10,787 bases of DNA. It comes from an uncultured Brevundimonas sp. GTDB taxonomy: Bacteria; Pseudomonadota; Alphaproteobacteria; Caulobacterales; Caulobacteraceae. Both the position numbers and the translations under genes were made by a program. The stretch spans positions 1-10,787 of the forward strand of contig CAMPGL010000066.1 in NCBI GenBank assembly GCA_946885435.1. Reading direction: 5' to 3'. Positions within the stretch are counted from its first letter, which is position 1. Every line of letters begins with the position of its first letter. Below the pieces are notes generated by a model. The model saw only the letters and a list, made by a program, of their open reading frames with translations. It did no database searches and was not told the DNA's origin. Positions 4,255 to 10,739 of this stretch are shown here, piece by piece.

Positions 4255-4279
4255 AACGGCCAAGCTTAGCCGCGGTTCC
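4255..4279 (-). promoter_or_regulatory. EcfG-type stress promoter for entericidin copy 1
   Basis: On the minus strand GGAAC (4279-4275) is followed after exactly 16 bases by CGTT (4258-4255), the consensus recognised by alphaproteobacterial EcfG sigma factors. The -10 element is about 25 bases before the entericidin ATG, leaving room for a short leader carrying the GGAGG ribosome site. It partly occupies the gap after the upstream lipoprotein gene, so the entericidin has its own promoter. Confidence 0.85.
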
Positions 4280-4930: not shown

Positions 4931-4960
4931 AAAGAAAAGGCCCCGCCGAAGCGGGGCCTT
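4931..4960 (-). terminator. rho-independent terminator after entericidin copy 2
   Basis: Reading the minus strand, the perfect 10-bp stem AAGGCCCCGC / GCGGGGCCTT (4960-4951 with 4946-4937, loop TTCG) is followed by a T-rich tract TTTTCTTTTT. It lies about 37 bases beyond the stop of the entericidin at 4997-5131 and before the lipoprotein start, so it probably ends the entericidin transcript and possibly the whole nepR-ecfG-phyK read-through. Confidence 0.88.
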
Positions 4961-4996
4961 TGGCCTTCGACCGCGGGGGGTCGATCGAAGGGAAAC

Positions 4997-5171: not shown

Positions 5172-5196
5172 AATGCCTAGGCCGAACCTTGGTTCC
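5172..5196 (-). promoter_or_regulatory. possible degenerate EcfG-type promoter for entericidin copy 2
   Basis: On the minus strand GGAAC (5196-5192) is followed after 16 bases by CATT (5175-5172). The -35 is perfect and the -10 differs from CGTT by one base. It overlaps the last codons of phyK and is 40 bases before the entericidin ATG, the same geometry as the perfect box of the paralogue. Confidence 0.45.
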
Positions 5197-6898
5197 CCTC
5201 GGGCGACGGCGGCGCGTCATCGATCTCGGGAGAGGGGAAGGTCAGGCGCGCCAGCACCCCGCCGCTCTCGCTGGGCAGGATCTCCGCGCGTCCGCGCAGC
5301 TGGCGGGCGAAGGCGGTCATCAGGGTCTGGCCGACGCCGCCGCCCTGGCGTTCGCCCTCGCGGGCGCCGGGGCCGTCGTCCTCGACCTCCAGCACGCTCT
5401 CCTCCTCGCCGCGATGGAAGCGCACCTTCAGCACCCCGCCGCGTCCTTCGAAGGCGTGCTTCTGGGCGTTGGAGATCGCCTCCACGGCCCACAGCGCGAT
5501 GGGCGCCAGCTTGTCCGGATCGACCACCAGCGCGTCGGCCTCGACGCGGGTGTCCACGACCGGCCCGCGGCCGCTGTCCTGGGCGATCAGCTGGCCGACC
5601 AGGTCTTCCAGGAAGCGGCCCACATCGACCCGCTTCAGGTTCTCCGACTGGTAGAGCGCCCGATAGATAAGGGCGAGCGCGGTGATCCGCTGGCGCGTGT
5701 CGTTCATCGCCGAGCGCGCCGCCGGGTCCTTCAGGGCGCGCTGCTGCATGTTGAGCAGCGACGTGATGACCTGCAGGTTGTTCTTCACCCGGTGGTGGAT
5801 CTCCCGCATCAGGCCGTCCTTCTCGGCCAGCGATTCCCTGAGCGAGGCGTCGCGGGCCACGATGGTGTCGACCATGTGGTCGAGCGTCCGACCCAGGTTG
5901 CGGATCTCCGCGGGCCCGTGCCTGGCCTGGACGGGCCGCACATTGAACCGGCCCTTGGCGTAGATGGCCGCGATCCGCTCCAGGTAGAGGAGCCAGCGCA
6001 CCACCACCCGCTCGGTGACGACCAGGACGAACAGCAGCGCCAGGCACCAGGTCAGCAGCGGCAGGAAGAAGACCCCCATCGCATTGCCCATGGCCCAGGC
6101 GACAAGCCCCTGGCTGGGCGCCGACAGGACGACGAAGACATCGCCGTTTGCGAAGGGCGAGGCGGTCACGATGCGCCGGTCGCCGCGCGCGTCGATCACC
6201 TCGGTGAGCTCCGGTCCCAGATTGTCGGCGGTCATCGCTCCGGCCGGGAAGGCGTCCCGGTCGGTGGAGGTCAGCACCACTCCCTGCGCGTCCACCAGGG
6301 CCACCTGCGAGCCCTCGATCGACACCCCCGCCGGGATGTTGGGCCTCAGGTCGTCCAGCGGCATGACGGCCAGGAAGACGCCGTCGAAGGCGCCCATCGG
6401 CCGTTCTGAGCGGATGGCGGCCAGCAGGGCCGGGTTCTGGGTGAAGACCCCATCAGGGGCGCGGGCGATGACGATGGTCTCGCCGTTGCGGATACGCTGG
6501 TACCAGGGCTGGCTGATCAGGGATTCGGCGCCGCGCACGTCGCCGCTCGCGCAGGTCACCCGCCCGTTGCGGCCGAGATGGACCAGGGCGTCATAGGCCT
6601 CCAGGTCCTGCACGAGCTGCCTCAGGCGCGGCACGCAGTAGAGGCCGATGGTCTCGGGACGCAGCGTCCGCAGCATGATGACCGCGCCGTCGATGCGCAT
6701 CTGGGCGTCGCCGGCGCTGGCGCGGGCGGACCGGACGAGCTCGGTGCGCGTCCGTTCGACCTCCTCGAGATAAGCGGCCCGAGACTGTAGGGCGCTCAGC
6801 AGCAGGATGGGCGCGAGCGCGAAGCCCAGCGCCACACCCAGGCGAAAGCGAATGCCTTGGACCCCGATGCCGAAGCGGGGCTTGCGCCAGCCGAACAC
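5177..6898 (-). CDS. phyK: PhyK-type membrane sensor histidine kinase (HisKA_2)
   Basis: A 573-residue kinase expected to control phosphorylation of PhyR and so the general stress response. The layout is TM1 (about 18-37), a large periplasmic sensor region (about 40-265, Cache-like by position), TM2 (about 275-296), a HAMP-like linker (about 297-350), a HisKA_2 dimerisation/phosphotransfer segment with EIHHRVKNNLQVITSLLNMQ (366-385), and an ATPase domain. His369 lies in the HRxxN motif of this kinase class and is the likely phosphorylation site. In the ATPase domain the N box is EAISNAQKHA (Asn477), the DxGxG box is EDDGPG (507-511), and a GGGVG loop follows. The start is GTG at 6898, one base after the ecfG stop (TGAGGTG), indicating coupling. 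In Caulobacter phyK lies in this same order beside sigT, nepR and phyR. Confidence 0.9.
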   Translation of the reverse strand: MFGWRKPRFGIGVQGIRFRLGVALGFALAPILLLSALQSRAAYLEEVERTRTELVRSARASAGDAQMRIDGAVIMLRTLRPETIGLYCVPRLRQLVQDLEAYDALVHLGRNGRVTCASGDVRGAESLISQPWYQRIRNGETIVIARAPDGVFTQNPALLAAIRSERPMGAFDGVFLAVMPLDDLRPNIPAGVSIEGSQVALVDAQGVVLTSTDRDAFPAGAMTADNLGPELTEVIDARGDRRIVTASPFANGDVFVVLSAPSQGLVAWAMGNAMGVFFLPLLTWCLALLFVLVVTERVVVRWLLYLERIAAIYAKGRFNVRPVQARHGPAEIRNLGRTLDHMVDTIVARDASLRESLAEKDGLMREIHHRVKNNLQVITSLLNMQQRALKDPAARSAMNDTRQRITALALIYRALYQSENLKRVDVGRFLEDLVGQLIAQDSGRGPVVDTRVEADALVVDPDKLAPIALWAVEAISNAQKHAFEGRGGVLKVRFHRGEEESVLEVEDDGPGAREGERQGGGVGQTLMTAFARQLRGRAEILPSESGGVLARLTFPSPEIDDAPPSPEGNQGSA

Positions 6899-6899
6899 C

Positions 6900-7502
6900 T
6901 CAGCGTGCGCCGCTGAGCCGATCCGCCTCGGCGAGGATGGCGCCCATGGCCTCTCCGGCCGCCCTGCCGTCCTGATTGTACTGCCCGCCCTCGAGCGTCG
7001 CCTGCAGGGCGCGGCGCGCCCGTGAGACGCGGCTCTTCACCGTGCCGACAGCGCAGTGGCAGATCTCGGCGGCCTCCTCGTAGGCGAAGCCGCCGGCGCC
7101 CACGAGCACGAGGGCTTCCCGTTGTTCGGGCGGCAGTTCCTGAAGCGCGCGGCGCAGTTCGTCGAGCGCCAGCGGGGCCGACGGATCATCAACGGCCACC
7201 AGGGTCCGCTCGGCGGCCTCCTGGTCCAGCTGCGACTGCCGCCAGGACCGGCGCTTCTCCGAATAGAACTGGTTGCGCAGGATCATGAAGGTCCAGGCCT
7301 TCATGTTCGTGCCCATCTGGAAGCTGGCGCGGGCGTCCCACGCCTTCATCATGGCGTCCTGCGCCAGATCGTCGGCGGCGGTGGCGTCACCGGTCAGGGT
7401 GCGGGCGAAGGCGCGCAGATGCGGAATGAGGGCGACCAGCTCTTTCTTGAAAGCCTTGTCGTCTTCTTCTGAGCGCTCCGGTCGGGTCCGGGCCTCGCTC
7501 AT
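6900..7502 (-). CDS. ecfG: general stress response sigma factor EcfG (SigT-like)
   Basis: An ECF sigma factor of the EcfG (ECF15) group, 200 residues. Region 2 spans about 22-87 and includes HLRAFARTLTGDATAADDLA and the NMKAWTFMILRNQFYSEKRR segment, very typical of EcfG. Region 4 spans about 113-167 with LPPEQREALVLVGAGGFAYE and the helix-turn-helix ending AVGTVKSRVSRARRAL. It directs RNA polymerase to GGAAC-N16/17-CGTT promoters, of which many lie in this window, including the one before its own operon (autoregulation). The ATG overlaps the nepR stop as ATGA, so anti-sigma and sigma are translated in a coupled way. The name sigT would be used in Caulobacter. Confidence 0.96.
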   Translation of the reverse strand: MSEARTRPERSEEDDKAFKKELVALIPHLRAFARTLTGDATAADDLAQDAMMKAWDARASFQMGTNMKAWTFMILRNQFYSEKRRSWRQSQLDQEAAERTLVAVDDPSAPLALDELRRALQELPPEQREALVLVGAGGFAYEEAAEICHCAVGTVKSRVSRARRALQATLEGGQYNQDGRAAGEAMGAILAEADRLSGAR

Positions 7503-7702
7503 GCGCTGCCTTTCTTGCGGTCGTCGGCCTTCTGCAGGATCGCCAGAAACTCGTCGGGCACGGGTTCGCTCACGACCTCGTCGAACAGGGTCCGGAGGCG
7601 CACGCCGATGGCCTGCTGGCGGAGTCTGGATTCCGCCATGTCGGGTTCACGCCTCGTCTGCACGTCTGTTCGTCTCCGGTCGGAGTTGCGTTTTTCGTTC
7701 AT
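7499..7702 (-). CDS. nepR: anti-sigma factor NepR
   Basis: A 67-residue protein whose core, about residues 27-60, shows the NepR signature: RLRTLFDEVVSEPVPDEFLA. Two short helices wrap around the sigma factor or, under stress, around phospho-PhyR. The rest (basic N-terminus rich in Arg, and tail DRKKGSA) is probably disordered, as in the family. I chose ATG at 7702. An in-frame TTG at 7708 adds two residues, and an internal ATG at 7639 would leave 46 residues with the core intact. No strong Shine-Dalgarno precedes 7702. It is first gene of the nepR-ecfG-phyK operon, about 45 bases after a perfect EcfG promoter. Confidence 0.93.
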   Translation of the reverse strand: MNEKRNSDRRRTDVQTRREPDMAESRLRQQAIGVRLRTLFDEVVSEPVPDEFLAILQKADDRKKGSA

Positions 7703-7746
7703 TTTCAATCAGCCGCCCCGGGTGCCCCACCGCCAGTCGATGCCAC

Positions 7747-7771
7747 AACGCCGCCCGCTTGCGCCGGTTCC
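7747..7771 (-). promoter_or_regulatory. EcfG-type autoregulatory promoter of nepR-ecfG-phyK
   Basis: On the minus strand GGAAC (7771-7767) and CGTT (7750-7747) are separated by exactly 16 bases. Its -10 lies 45 bases before the nepR ATG. This provides positive feedback by EcfG on its own operon, as known in Caulobacter and relatives. Confidence 0.93.
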
Positions 7772-7813: not shown

Positions 7814-7838
7814 GGAACCGTAGCCGCGTCGGGCCGTT
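7814..7838 (+). promoter_or_regulatory. EcfG-type promoter of phyR
   Basis: GGAAC (7814-7818) and CGTT (7835-7838) are separated by exactly 16 bases on the plus strand, with the -10 box 55 bases before the phyR ATG. Its -35 end is only 42 bases from the -35 of the divergent nepR promoter. The intergenic region is therefore a two-way, EcfG-controlled control point. Confidence 0.93.
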
Positions 7839-7893: not shown

Positions 7894-8685
7894 ATGAGTC
7901 TTGTCGCCAAGCTGGCTCCGCATCTGCCTTATGTCCGCCGCTATGCGCGCGCGCTGACGGGGGATCAGGTGTCGGGGGACAACTACGTCCGGGCCGCGCT
8001 GGAGGCCGTCGCCGCCGGCGAGGTCCAGCTCAAGGAATCGGTGACGCCGCGCGTCGCCCTCTATCAGGTCTTCCACGCCATCTGGGGCACCACCGGCGCC
8101 CAGCTTGAGATGGAAGCCGCCAACACCGGCGATGATCCCAGCCGTCGGCTGCTGCGCATCCCGCCGCGCTCGCGGCAGGCCTTCCTGCTGACCGCGCTCG
8201 AAGGCTTCACGCCTTCGGAATCGGCCCAGATCCTCGGTGGCGAGGTCTCCGAGGTCGAGAAGCTGATCGCCGAGGCCCAGGCTGAAATCGACGCCGAGCT
8301 GGCGACCGACGTCCTCATCATCGAGGACGAGGCCGTCATCTCCGCCGACATCGAGGCGCTGGTGCGCGAACTCGGCCACCGGGTCGTGGCCGTCACCACC
8401 ACCCGCACCGAAGCCGTCGACGCCGTCGCCAACGAGCGGCCGGGGCTGATCCTGGCGGACATCCAGCTGGCCGACGGCTCCTCGGGCATCGACGCGGTCA
8501 AGGACATCCTCAAGCGCTACGACGTGCCGGTGATCTTCATCACCGCCTTCCCCGAACGCCTGCTGACCGGCGAGCGTCCGGAGCCGACCTTCCTGATCAC
8601 CAAGCCCTTCCAGCCCGACAATGTGAAGGCGGCGATCGGCCAGGCCCTGTTCTTCCACCCGGCGCGCGAGCGCGTCGCGGCCTGA
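7894..8685 (+). CDS. phyR: anti-anti-sigma response regulator PhyR
   Basis: A 263-residue two-domain regulator. The N-terminal sigma-like domain (about 1-135: LPYVRRYARALTGD, then IPPRSRQAFLLTALEGFTPS) mimics EcfG. The receiver domain (about 138-255) carries the acidic pocket (IIEDEAV, Asp145), phospho-acceptor Asp189 (LILADIQLADG), Thr217 in FITAFPERLLTG and Lys237 (TKPFQP). The FITAFPE stretch is typical of the PhyR-type receivers. On phosphorylation the sigma-like domain is exposed and binds NepR, releasing EcfG. I chose ATG 7894 because translation upstream is out of character. GGGGA lies eight bases before it. It is divergent from nepR and ends before a two-way terminator. Confidence 0.97.
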   Translation: MSLVAKLAPHLPYVRRYARALTGDQVSGDNYVRAALEAVAAGEVQLKESVTPRVALYQVFHAIWGTTGAQLEMEAANTGDDPSRRLLRIPPRSRQAFLLTALEGFTPSESAQILGGEVSEVEKLIAEAQAEIDAELATDVLIIEDEAVISADIEALVRELGHRVVAVTTTRTEAVDAVANERPGLILADIQLADGSSGIDAVKDILKRYDVPVIFITAFPERLLTGERPEPTFLITKPFQPDNVKAAIGQALFFHPARERVAA

Positions 8686-8760: not shown

Positions 8761-9042
8761 CTAGGAGGCCGGCTCGACCGGCGGCTGCTCACCCTCAGGC
8801 GACTGGCGCGCAACGTCGCCCGACGGCTGGTCGAAAGCCTGGGCGTCGGTGGCCTGCCGCGCGTTGTGCTGCTCGACGTTCTGGTTGTTGAAGAGATAGA
8901 CGGCCGCCATCGCCAGGCCCGACAGGACCAGGGCCACGACCAGCACCGCCAGGATCGGCAGGCCCTTGCGCCCCTGCTTGGCGCGATCCTCCGAGATCAC
9001 GCGCGGCTCGGCGGGGGTGTCGTTCATCGGATCTTGAGTCAT
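8761..9042 (-). CDS. small single-pass membrane protein, stress-regulated, unknown function
   Basis: Of 93 residues from the ATG at 9042 (an in-frame GTG at 9054 and ATG at 9027 are alternatives). The N-terminal part (MTQDPMNDTPAEPRVISEDR) is polar and followed by a basic AKQGRKG. One strong membrane helix then follows at about 29-50 (LPILAVLVVALVLSGLAMAA). After the helix comes an Asn/Gln-rich and acidic tail (FNNQN..., ending QPPVEPAS). The positive-inside rule puts the N-terminus in the cytoplasm. I do not recognise the family. A perfect EcfG-type promoter with a 17-base spacer (9081-9106) lies 39 bases upstream. It is convergent with phyR and back to back with a predicted stress RNA. Confidence 0.78.
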   Translation of the reverse strand: MTQDPMNDTPAEPRVISEDRAKQGRKGLPILAVLVVALVLSGLAMAAVYLFNNQNVEQHNARQATDAQAFDQPSGDVARQSPEGEQPPVEPAS

Positions 9043-9080: not shown

Positions 9081-9106
9081 AACGCCCGGAAATCGGGCCC
9101 CGTTCC
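9081..9106 (-). promoter_or_regulatory. EcfG-type promoter of the small membrane protein gene (17-base spacer)
   Basis: On the minus strand GGAAC (9106-9102) is followed after 17 bases by CGTT (9084-9081). Spacers of 16 or 17 are both accepted for EcfG promoters. The -10 lies 39 bases before the ATG at 9042. It is divergent from the RNA promoter at 9145-9169. Confidence 0.82.
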
Positions 9107-9144: not shown

Positions 9145-9169
9145 GGAACCGAAGTCTCGGTCCCTCGTT
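9145..9169 (+). promoter_or_regulatory. EcfG-type promoter of a predicted small RNA
   Basis: GGAAC (9145-9149) and CGTT (9166-9169) are separated by exactly 16 bases on the plus strand. No coding gene starts downstream on this strand before a strong terminator at 9261-9287, so the promoter points at a short untranslated transcript. Confidence 0.9.
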
Positions 9170-9175
9170 CATAAG

Positions 9176-9287
9176 CTTGCGGAGGCGGCGACGCCCCCCC
9201 GACTTGAGGCTGATTAGTTTCAGCCTGCCGCCTCCGCGCTCTATTTCTCGATGAACTATCGGGCCCCGTTCGGGGCCCTTTTTTTTT
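9176..9287 (+). ncRNA. gsrN: predicted EcfG-dependent small RNA, GsrN-like
   Basis: A transcript from the perfect EcfG promoter would start at about 9175-9177 and stop in the T-run at 9279-9287, about 112 nt. Its visible structure is a perfect 11-bp stem GCGGAGGCGGC (9179-9189) / GCCGCCTCCGC (9227-9237). Inside this is a 7-bp hairpin AGGCTGA (9207-9213) / TCAGCCT (9220-9226) with loop TTAGTT, and between the two stems an unpaired stretch 9190-9206 with seven C in a row (9194-9200). A short linker and the terminator hairpin follow. The Caulobacter stress RNA GsrN is SigT-dependent, about 110 nt, and uses an exposed C-rich loop to pair with target mRNAs such as katG. The match in control, size and C-rich segment is why I propose this name. 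Homology was not tested. Confidence 0.8.
9261..9287 (+). terminator. rho-independent terminator of the predicted small RNA
   Basis: The perfect 8-bp stem GGGCCCCG (9261-9268) / CGGGGCCC (9271-9278) is followed by nine T (9279-9287), a textbook intrinsic terminator on the plus strand with no plus-strand coding gene before it. Confidence 0.93.
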
Positions 9288-9300
9288 CGGCCGCCGCACG

Positions 9301-9329
9301 AAAAACCGCCGGCGCGGAAGCGCCGACGG
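9301..9329 (-). terminator. rho-independent terminator of the OmpA-like lipoprotein gene
   Basis: On the minus strand a 10-bp stem (9329-9320 with 9315-9306, one mismatch, TTCC loop) is followed by five T (9305-9301). It lies about 20 bases after the stop at 9350. Confidence 0.82.
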
Positions 9330-9349
9330 CTCCTCATTTCCATCGCACC

Positions 9350-9802
9350 TCAGGCTGTCGGGGCCGAGGCCTCCACGACCACCTCGACGCGGCGCCGCAC
9401 GGGCTCGGCGACGCCGTCCTGGACCGCGCCGTCCTCGCCGGCCGCCATCAGCTCGAACGCCGGGGTCGGCCAGCCGGCCCCGGCCAGCGCATTGCCAACG
9501 TTGATGGCGCGCCGCTCCGACAGGGTCCGGTTGCGCTCCACGCTGCCCGTGGCGTCCGCCAGCCCCAGAACCCGCACCCGGTTGATGCTGCAGCCGCGCA
9601 GCCGATCCGCCGTGGTCGAGATCAGTTCCCGCGCCTCGCGTGTCAGTCCCGCCTGGCTCTCCTCGAAATAGACCGGCAGGGTCGTGTTCACGCACACCTG
9701 CGGATCCACGACCAGCTCGCTCCGGTCCCGGAACAGGCTCCGCGTCGTGTCGCACCCCGCCACCGCCAGCGCCGCGACGCCGATGACCATCACTGTTCTC
9801 AT
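9350..9802 (-). CDS. OmpA-like lipoprotein
   Basis: A 150-residue lipoprotein: signal peptide MRTVMVIGVAALAVAGC with Cys17 as the lipidated residue. A domain at about 36-145 then follows the OmpA C-terminal plan. A beta strand (LPVYFEESQAGLT) starts it, where the usual 'F...' strand of the family is found. Next come a helix and VRVLGLADATGSVERNRTLS, and then ERRAINVGNALAGAG. Asp84 and the arginines of 'ERRA' correspond by position to the D...R pair that binds diaminopimelate in OmpA-like domains. It probably anchors the outer membrane to peptidoglycan. A GGAGG-type site precedes the ATG. It lies 72 bases after the glycine-zipper lipoprotein gene, with a hairpin between. No EcfG box was found before it, so it may depend on read-through or a different promoter. 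Confidence 0.85.
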   Translation of the reverse strand: MRTVMVIGVAALAVAGCDTTRSLFRDRSELVVDPQVCVNTTLPVYFEESQAGLTREARELISTTADRLRGCSINRVRVLGLADATGSVERNRTLSERRAINVGNALAGAGWPTPAFELMAAGEDGAVQDGVAEPVRRRVEVVVEASAPTA

Positions 9803-9820
9803 GTCCTCACCCCTCCAAGC

Positions 9821-9852
9821 AAAAGGCGGCCCCTCTCGCGACGGGCCGCCTT
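9821..9852 (-). terminator. terminator of the glycine-zipper lipoprotein gene
   Basis: On the minus strand the stem AAGGCGGCCC (9852-9843) / GGGCCGCCTT (9832-9823) has a ten-base loop and ends in TTTT (9824-9821). It lies about 22 bases beyond the stop at 9875 and just before the OmpA-like gene. The T-run is short, so partial read-through is possible. Confidence 0.72.
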
Positions 9853-9874
9853 CCGTTTCGCCTTCCGGCTCCGC

Positions 9875-10204
9875 CTAGTTCCGACGGGTCCCGTCTTCCC
9901 AGTAGCAGTCACCTTCCGGATAGCAGTAATAGTACCGGCCGTAGCGGCTGTCCCATTGGCGGGACAGGTTGCGGGCCTCGCGGTCCTGCTGCGAACCGCG
10001 GACGGCGCCCGCGATGCCGCCGACGACGGCGCCGATGGCGGCCCCGCGTCCGGCGTTGCCGTCGCCGACGTTGTTGCCGATCACGGCGCCCGCGAGGGCC
10101 CCGAGGGCGGCGCCGCCAGCGGCGTTACGCTCGACATTGCCCGTCGAGGTACAGGCGCCGGCCACAAGAGCGGCGCCCGCGACGGCCACAAAAACTTTCC
10201 TCAT
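9875..10204 (-). CDS. glycine-zipper lipoprotein
   Basis: A 109-residue precursor. The signal peptide MRKVFVAVAGAALVAGAC has Cys18 as probable lipidation site, although the -3 residue is Ala rather than Leu. Residues about 28-70 are a glycine-zipper region with repeated small residues (AAGGAALGALAGAVIGNNVG ... GAAIGAVVGGIAGAVRG), the pattern of the rickettsial 17-kDa antigen / YMGG-like families, thought to insert in or pack against membranes. The C-terminal part is unusual: aromatic and paired-cysteine RYYYCYPEGDCYWEDG (about 90-105), which may form a disulfide loop. A GGGAGA ribosome site precedes the ATG, and a perfect EcfG-type promoter lies 33 bases upstream (10237-10261). This supports a stress-induced envelope role. 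Confidence 0.88.
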   Translation of the reverse strand: MRKVFVAVAGAALVAGACTSTGNVERNAAGGAALGALAGAVIGNNVGDGNAGRGAAIGAVVGGIAGAVRGSQQDREARNLSRQWDSRYGRYYYCYPEGDCYWEDGTRRN

Positions 10205-10236
10205 GAGATGGTCTCCCTATTCGCTCCCCAGGCGAG

Positions 10237-10261
10237 AACGCTGGATTGCGGCCACGGTTCC
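10237..10261 (-). promoter_or_regulatory. EcfG-type promoter of the glycine-zipper lipoprotein gene
   Basis: On the minus strand GGAAC (10261-10257) and CGTT (10240-10237) are separated by exactly 16 bases. The -10 lies 33 bases before the ATG at 10204. Confidence 0.87.
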
Positions 10262-10351
10262 CTGACTATCACTACAGCGAAGGTTGCGTTAACCTTTTGT
10301 CGCGGTCGCGTGGAGCGCTTGGCCGCTGGGTGTTTGAAGGGGGCTTTGGAC

Positions 10352-10690
10352 ATGGCTGACGAGGATCACCGTCCCGCGTGGGAACGTGGCCGTCGCAGGG
10401 GCGGCGGCAATCCGCTGGTGGGACTGATCGTCACGCTGCTGGCGCTGTTCGGGGCGCTGACCGCGGGTCTCGGCATCGCCGAGCGCTCGGTGGGTGAAGC
10501 CGGCGATCGCATCGACGGCTGGATCTCGACCGGCTGGAACGCGGTCACGGGCGCGGCCGACGACGTCGACGAGGAGGCCGCCGCCGTCGCCGAGGAAGTC
10601 GTGCAGGAGTCCGGCGAGGCCGTGCAGAGCGCCGGCGAAGCCGTCGAAGGCGCCGCCGACGAGGCCGCCGAGAACCTCAGCCGCGACTAG
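10352..10690 (+). CDS. small membrane protein with acidic heptad-like helix, unknown function
   Basis: A 112-residue product from the ATG at 10352, preceded by GAAGGGGG (10336-10343), eight bases upstream. The N-terminus (MADEDHRPAWERGRRRGGGN) is polar and strongly basic just before a membrane helix at about 21-43 (PLVGLIVTLLALFGALTAGL). The C-terminal half is a long acidic Ala/Glu-rich helix with seven-residue periodicity (GEAVQSA, GEAVEGA, ADEAAEN). I do not recognise the family. The 'AGEAV' motif also occurs in both entericidins of this window, perhaps a convergent amphipathic-helix feature. The frame is open far upstream to 9251, but that stretch overlaps two well-supported minus-strand genes and is a shadow. 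No EcfG box was found before it; the 147 bases upstream contain only the divergent promoter at 10237-10261. Confidence 0.78.
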   Translation: MADEDHRPAWERGRRRGGGNPLVGLIVTLLALFGALTAGLGIAERSVGEAGDRIDGWISTGWNAVTGAADDVDEEAAAVAEEVVQESGEAVQSAGEAVEGAADEAAENLSRD

Positions 10691-10714: not shown

Positions 10715-10739
10715 GGAACCTCGGCTGTTCCCAACCGTT
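10715..10739 (+). promoter_or_regulatory. EcfG-type promoter facing out of the window
   Basis: GGAAC (10715-10719) and CGTT (10736-10739) are separated by exactly 16 bases on the plus strand. It lies 25 bases after the stop of the small membrane protein. The target is not in view; an in-frame ATG at 10748 stays open to the edge but would leave almost no leader and has no ribosome site. Confidence 0.8.

Follow-up and report, generated by a model that had tools for sequence, protein, structure and literature searches.

The window analysed here, a stretch of 10,787 nucleotides from an uncultured Brevundimonas sp., carries the genes of a general stress response system together with a small RNA gene that we assign to gsrN (Table 1). 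A histidine kinase of the HWE/HisKA_2 type, a sigma factor of the EcfG type and NepR are encoded on the minus strand and PhyR on the plus strand, all of them recognised by Pfam matches; the kinase is called PhyK-like from its position and domain, and the name is putative. The end of phyR, at 8685, lies 460 bases before the promoter of the small RNA gene. Promoters were called with the letters GGAAC-N16/17-CGTT, which we take to be the EcfG/SigT consensus. Seven such sites are present in the 10.8 kb, against 0.07 expected in shuffled sequences, and the region with its seven EcfG-type promoters looks like a general stress island.

Table 1. Features of the general stress locus and of the small RNA gene (positions in the window).
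Feature	Position	Strand	Basis and details
EcfG-type promoter before entericidin-like gene	4255-4279
PhyK-like HWE/HisKA_2 histidine kinase	5177-6898	-	Pfam; putative name
ecfG-type sigma factor	6900-7502	-	Pfam (ECF-type)
nepR	7499-7708	-	Pfam
EcfG-type promoter before nepR-ecfG	7747-7771
EcfG-type promoter before phyR	7814-7838
phyR	7894-8685	+	Pfam
EcfG-type promoter before 93-aa protein	9081-9106
EcfG-type promoter of the small RNA, GGAAC-N16-CGTT	9145-9169	+	Window reading (GGAAC 9145-9149, spacer of 16 bases, CGTT 9166-9169); same element in relatives
gsrN (RF01529/CC3552) small RNA gene	9179-9287	+	Family model; start G9179 by analogy with GsrN numbering
Closing stem (11 bp), 5' strand	9179-9189	+	Fold, covariation
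Unpaired C-rich strip (17 nt), presumed target-binding loop	9190-9206	+	Fold, alignment
C7-GAC core (seven-C run C9194-C9200)	9194-9203	+	Alignment of 60 members
Inner hairpin, 7 bp (9207-9213 / 9220-9226), loop 9214-9219	9207-9226	+	Fold, covariation
Closing stem (11 bp), 3' strand	9227-9237	+	Fold, covariation
Predicted processing position, equivalent of C. crescentus GsrN C53/T54	9232-9233	+	Inferred by homology
Second motif TTCTCGATGA	9245-9254	+	Common to many, not all, members
Intrinsic terminator, 7-bp stem and nine T	9261-9287	+	Window reading, fold (stem-loop 9261-9278, T run T9279-9287)
EcfG-type promoter before glycine-zipper protein	10237-10261
EcfG-type promoter pointing out of the window	10715-10739

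The architecture read in the original prediction was recovered in all its parts: a perfect EcfG promoter, a closed 11-bp stem enclosing a 7-bp inner hairpin and an unpaired strip with seven C, and a strong terminator. The segment 9175-9295 folds with -56 kcal/mol, compared with -41.8 +/- 3.7 for shuffled sequences (z -3.9), none of 200 shuffles being as good. The absence of a plus-strand gene behind the promoter was also borne out, no evident one being found directly behind it in the ORF list of the window or by Pfam. A mechanical ORF at 9251-10690 (+) crosses the terminator, and two ORFs with Pfam matches lie antisense to it on the minus strand.

Some other elements of the window can be mentioned. 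The 93-aa protein (8761-9042, minus strand), divergent from gsrN, has one hydrophobic stretch and no Pfam match; in 18 of 73 loci a relative is encoded upstream of gsrN in the opposite orientation, and the promoter of the 93-aa protein is kept in the closest relative listed (L040, see below). GGGGGC occurs at 10339-10351, just before a 112-aa ORF (10352-10690, plus strand), where a six-base pairing with the GsrN C-tract is possible. It is kept in L040, and before the L119 relative of this ORF only GGGGCGG is found, further upstream; since G runs are common in the window, it is a weak pairing candidate. A match to the 6C RNA family at 4932-4994 (minus strand) is sub-threshold (32.6 bits, cut-off 47, E 0.33) and, as 6C is an actinobacterial RNA, is probably due to chance.

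Assignment to the GsrN family

The covariance model RF01529 (CC3552) matches positions 9181-9278 of the plus strand with 69.5 bits (gathering cut-off 50, E 8.9e-10), and the match is full length, covering all 106 model positions. A second model, R1, which was built with the window sequence included, scores the small RNA at 98.7 bits. Our search for literature naming CC3552 found none, and the equation of RF01529 with GsrN is our own. GsrN of Caulobacter crescentus, annotated as ccna_R0081, has six tandem C in its 5' loop and is found as a full-length form and as isoforms of 51-54 nt, with internal ends near C53, at T54 and at T64 (PMC5869019). In two members of RF01529 with six C (L132 and L133), positions 53, 54 and 64 counted from the first G of the stem are C, T and T. 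Furthermore, both genomes present GTCGGGG 39 bases before the start of katG, which fits the pairing of the first seven katG nucleotides described in that paper. The flanks of gsrN in L132 and L133, searched for phyR over about 1.5 kb in each direction, gave no match, in agreement with the C. crescentus gsrN, which is distal to the genes of the general stress response (PMC5869019). From these landmarks (six C, C53, T54 and T64) we infer that RF01529 corresponds to GsrN.

Published matches to GsrN come from Caulobacter, Brevundimonas and Phenylobacterium and are as a rule close to the general stress genes ecfG, nepR and phyR, with BLASTn matches confined to the Caulobacteraceae (PMC5869019). This was the one paper found in our literature search for a Brevundimonas small RNA connected with the general stress response and EcfG. 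That Brevundimonas carries GsrN close to its phyR locus is therefore already published, and the copy in the window is a further member. With respect to the portions of PMC5869019 available to us, our additions are the count of covarying pairs, the definition of a minimal core and the lack of the katG site among the relatives from Brevundimonas.

The genomic neighbourhood points in the same direction. Among the matches listed, 56 pattern-scan loci extend upstream for 1500 bases or more, and 53 of these have PhyR encoded there in the same orientation, the exceptions being L028, L089 and L119. The closest relative among the matches listed is L040, from Brevundimonas sp. isolate RX1_metabat.bin.59, in which PhyR is 98% identical and the order of the neighbours is the same as in the window. 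A structural RNA or leader with a different role could in principle resemble GsrN by chance; given the E value of the RF01529 match, this synteny and the fact that the gene has its own promoter and terminator, we consider such a coincidence highly improbable. The homology with GsrN that had been proposed for this RNA is thus supported by the family model, by the promoter, by the synteny and, as described below, by a covarying structure. The model, the covariation and the synteny confirm that the general stress locus of this Brevundimonas-like genome includes the small RNA GsrN.

Conservation and range of the family

Relatives were collected in two ways. A pattern scan of genome contigs gave at least 119 stretches, part of which are chance matches in unrelated bacteria. 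The pattern fixes the C-tract core by design, and for this reason the family-model loci were used to assess how far the core is conserved; they come partly from genomes also present in the pattern scan (L120-L128, L131, L139, L141 and L145). Among the matches listed, loci L001-L155 include 93 distinct core-bearing (C-only) sequences. The promoter GGAAC-N16/17-NGTT lies upstream of 90 of them and is absent in L062, L069 (only 7 bases upstream) and L114; the C-run of these pattern-scan relatives, again among the matches listed, has seven C in 52, eight in 38 and six in 3. In the loci from the family-model searches and the regions fetched after them, 71 of 82 have the promoter, and the 11 misses comprise three false matches, one misplacement (L200) and seven cases of GGAAC with CATT or GATT. 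Regarding this -10 element, CATT instead of CGTT is observed in L150, L152, L204, L225, L232 and L237, and GATT in L238.

An alignment of 60 rows was prepared from 68 matched sources, from which eight similar ones (L005, L024, L207, L219, L230, L235, L236 and L237) were removed by hand before counting. Here the C-run has six C in 11 members, seven in 34, eight in 10, nine in 4 and fourteen in 1. GAC follows at least six C in all 60 (with one extra T between them in L203), and the TTGAG that comes after GAC is not fixed, which indicates that the constrained element consists of six or more C plus GAC. The member with 14 C (L211, 145-265, minus strand) departs from the usual 6-9, perhaps by homopolymer expansion or assembly error.

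Loss of stem pairs without compensating changes was looked for in the relatives and not seen: 99.0% of 1003 cells of the stem and hairpin structure are paired, compared with 36-58% when the structure is slid as a control. Changes on both sides were found in 11 of the 17 pairs, and none of 500 shuffles was as high on any of five measures, although related sequences can beat such shuffles even without structure, the measures that count pairs and types being the robust ones. These data also bear on the idea of a short coding gene, starting at the ATG at 9251 or within the small RNA. It would have in its favour the existence of the mechanical ORF mentioned above, whose course through the terminator and antisense to two Pfam-matched ORFs speaks against it. 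In addition, the C-runs of 6, 7, 8, 9 and 14 and the variation of the hairpin loops put the relatives in different reading frames, and such differences of one or a few bases argue against coding within the RNA. We therefore give the coding gene next to no credence, and keep the reading of a small RNA.

Regarding the range of the family, RF01529 matched in 165 of 249 genomes of the Caulobacteraceae, 159 of them over the cut-off, and in 52 of 299 genomes of the order, all 52 already found in the earlier family searches. Model R1 matched in 68 of 68 given sources, many of which had built it, with 13 weaker second matches, and in 3 of 385 genomes of the class sample, all three known family members. 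Beyond the Caulobacteraceae, the order and class samples gave no match under strict filters (9-12 candidates scored per genome) with which remote homologues could be missed; the outcome in the class sample agrees with the BLASTn limit to the Caulobacteraceae given in PMC5869019. A plasmid search with the DNA of the small RNA also gave no match. Two RF01529 matches were counted in G204. Weak second matches in G153, G157 and G160 (35-37 bits, below the cut-off), read as L195, L193 and L194, were rejected as false, having neither an EcfG promoter nor the C-tract core.

katG as a possible target

In C. crescentus, GsrN pairs with the 5' leader of katG and raises KatG; the first seven nucleotides of katG pair with seven loop nucleotides that include four of the six C (PMC5869019). 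The original prediction had named katG as a possible target and had the C-rich strip pairing with G-rich ribosome sites. For katG, the second part does not hold in C. crescentus: the site is the 5' end of the mRNA and the effect is activation, which is not a block of the ribosome site (PMC5869019).

The first part was not supported in the relatives of the window. Leaders of katG (TIGR00198) gave 32 rows from 36 loci fetched (L256 and L258 are one gene), the leader starts of Brevundimonas being predicted ones. We adopted a count of the exact heptamer after a test of duplex energy had shown no clear gain of the loop-leader duplexes over shuffles, even in the three named Caulobacter (shuffle fractions 0.14-0.56). 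In 5 of the 32 rows (L245, L246, L247, L249 and L252), whose KatG starts are Caulobacter-like by our own reading, the exact seven-base complement of the loop lies no more than 60 bases from the start of katG; L251 has the exact heptamer farther out, at -78. None of the 14 Brevundimonas and Phenylobacterium rows has it, compared with 5 of the 18 other rows. The 12 Brevundimonas rows without it include B. alba, B. viscosa and L162, the katG leader of the closest relative of the window among the matches listed; the other two are from Phenylobacterium. Further non-Brevundimonas rows also lack the heptamer, so that the katG site is patchy there too. An extended complement, TCAAGTCGGGGH, was searched in 14 Brevundimonas genomes and showed no enrichment, being found 18 times while the reversed pattern was found 31 times. 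As to the gene itself, katG was matched in 30 of 36 gsrN-bearing genomes, and no match was found in G004, G009, G046, G083, G190 and G257, of which the first two are named B. nasdae and C. ginsengisoli and any of which may be an incomplete draft. The scarcity of the heptamer and the lack of a katG match in 6 of 36 genomes, while six or more C plus GAC are kept, suggest that katG is probably not a target across the whole family.

A refinement that is compatible with the assignment to GsrN would be that the main targets of the RNA in Brevundimonas are others than katG, with an output different from that of C. crescentus. The zero of 14 against 5 of 18 rows, the gsrN-bearing genomes in which katG was not matched and the retention of C-tract and GAC by all 60 members are all consistent with it. 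On the other side, the leader starts of Brevundimonas are predicted and could be wrong, and the RNA may pair at the Shine-Dalgarno sequence or at a more distant upstream site: complements of the loop occur at -125 in L166 and at -129 in L171, and a run of four G lies at -52 in L156 and one of five G at -137 in L162. Moreover, the exact heptamer is also missing from the rows of the three named Caulobacter, which carry instead the near variant GACGGGG, seen at about -46 in L158, L160, L161 and L253, and the genomes without a katG match may be incomplete. Weighing both sides, we regard this refinement as a serious possibility that falls somewhat short of an even chance. Across the family, few parts of the RNA are as constrained as the core that binds targets, while the one proven site, the katG 5' end, occurs in a minority of the katG leaders and in none of those examined from Brevundimonas or Phenylobacterium. 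Still more tentatively, and with a lower probability, it could be proposed that in these two genera GsrN protects the cells through another, ancestral target, and that control of katG arose later, within Caulobacter. This raises the question of which mRNA holds the C-tract core nearly constant in genomes that lack the 5'-end site of katG or even katG.

Proposed mechanism and comparison with known systems

Taken as a whole, the locus is almost certainly best explained by an orthologue of GsrN; it would be started by EcfG, would probably be processed and would pair through its C-rich strip, the 5' end of katG probably not being its main target in Brevundimonas. Under stress, EcfG is set free by way of PhyR and NepR, and this sigma factor and both regulators are encoded in the window. 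Once released, EcfG would start transcription about ten bases after CGTT 9166-9169, and the RNA is predicted to end near 9287. By analogy with C. crescentus, the RNA is probably cleaved within the 3' strand of the closing stem, which would yield a stable 5' fragment about 54 bases long. The C7-GAC strip may pair with G-rich sites of mRNAs and alter their translation, as happens with katG in C. crescentus. The absence of the katG site in the relatives suggests that the main conserved target in Brevundimonas is probably not the 5' end of this mRNA. GsrN of C. crescentus needs SigT, undergoes processing and is affected by Hfq (PMC5869019).

GsrN-like RNAs with proximity to general stress genes, an EcfG site and an exposed C-rich 5' loop have also been described in Rhizobiaceae (PMC5869019). 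We consider them analogues rather than demonstrated homologues, and the class sample of 385 genomes searched with R1 may not include Rhizobiaceae. Within RF01529, the window copy scores 69.5 bits whereas B. viscosa, B. alba and B. nasdae score 98-113, and its hairpin loop and 3' spacer diverge. Compared with C. crescentus GsrN, the window copy has seven C instead of six and adjoins phyR, whereas the C. crescentus gene is distal (PMC5869019); in addition, the Brevundimonas relatives examined did not show the site known from the 5' end of katG. In its general design the RNA is like C. crescentus GsrN: an EcfG/SigT promoter, a length of about 100 nt, a 5' stem-loop with an exposed C-tract, an inner hairpin and a terminator (PMC5869019).
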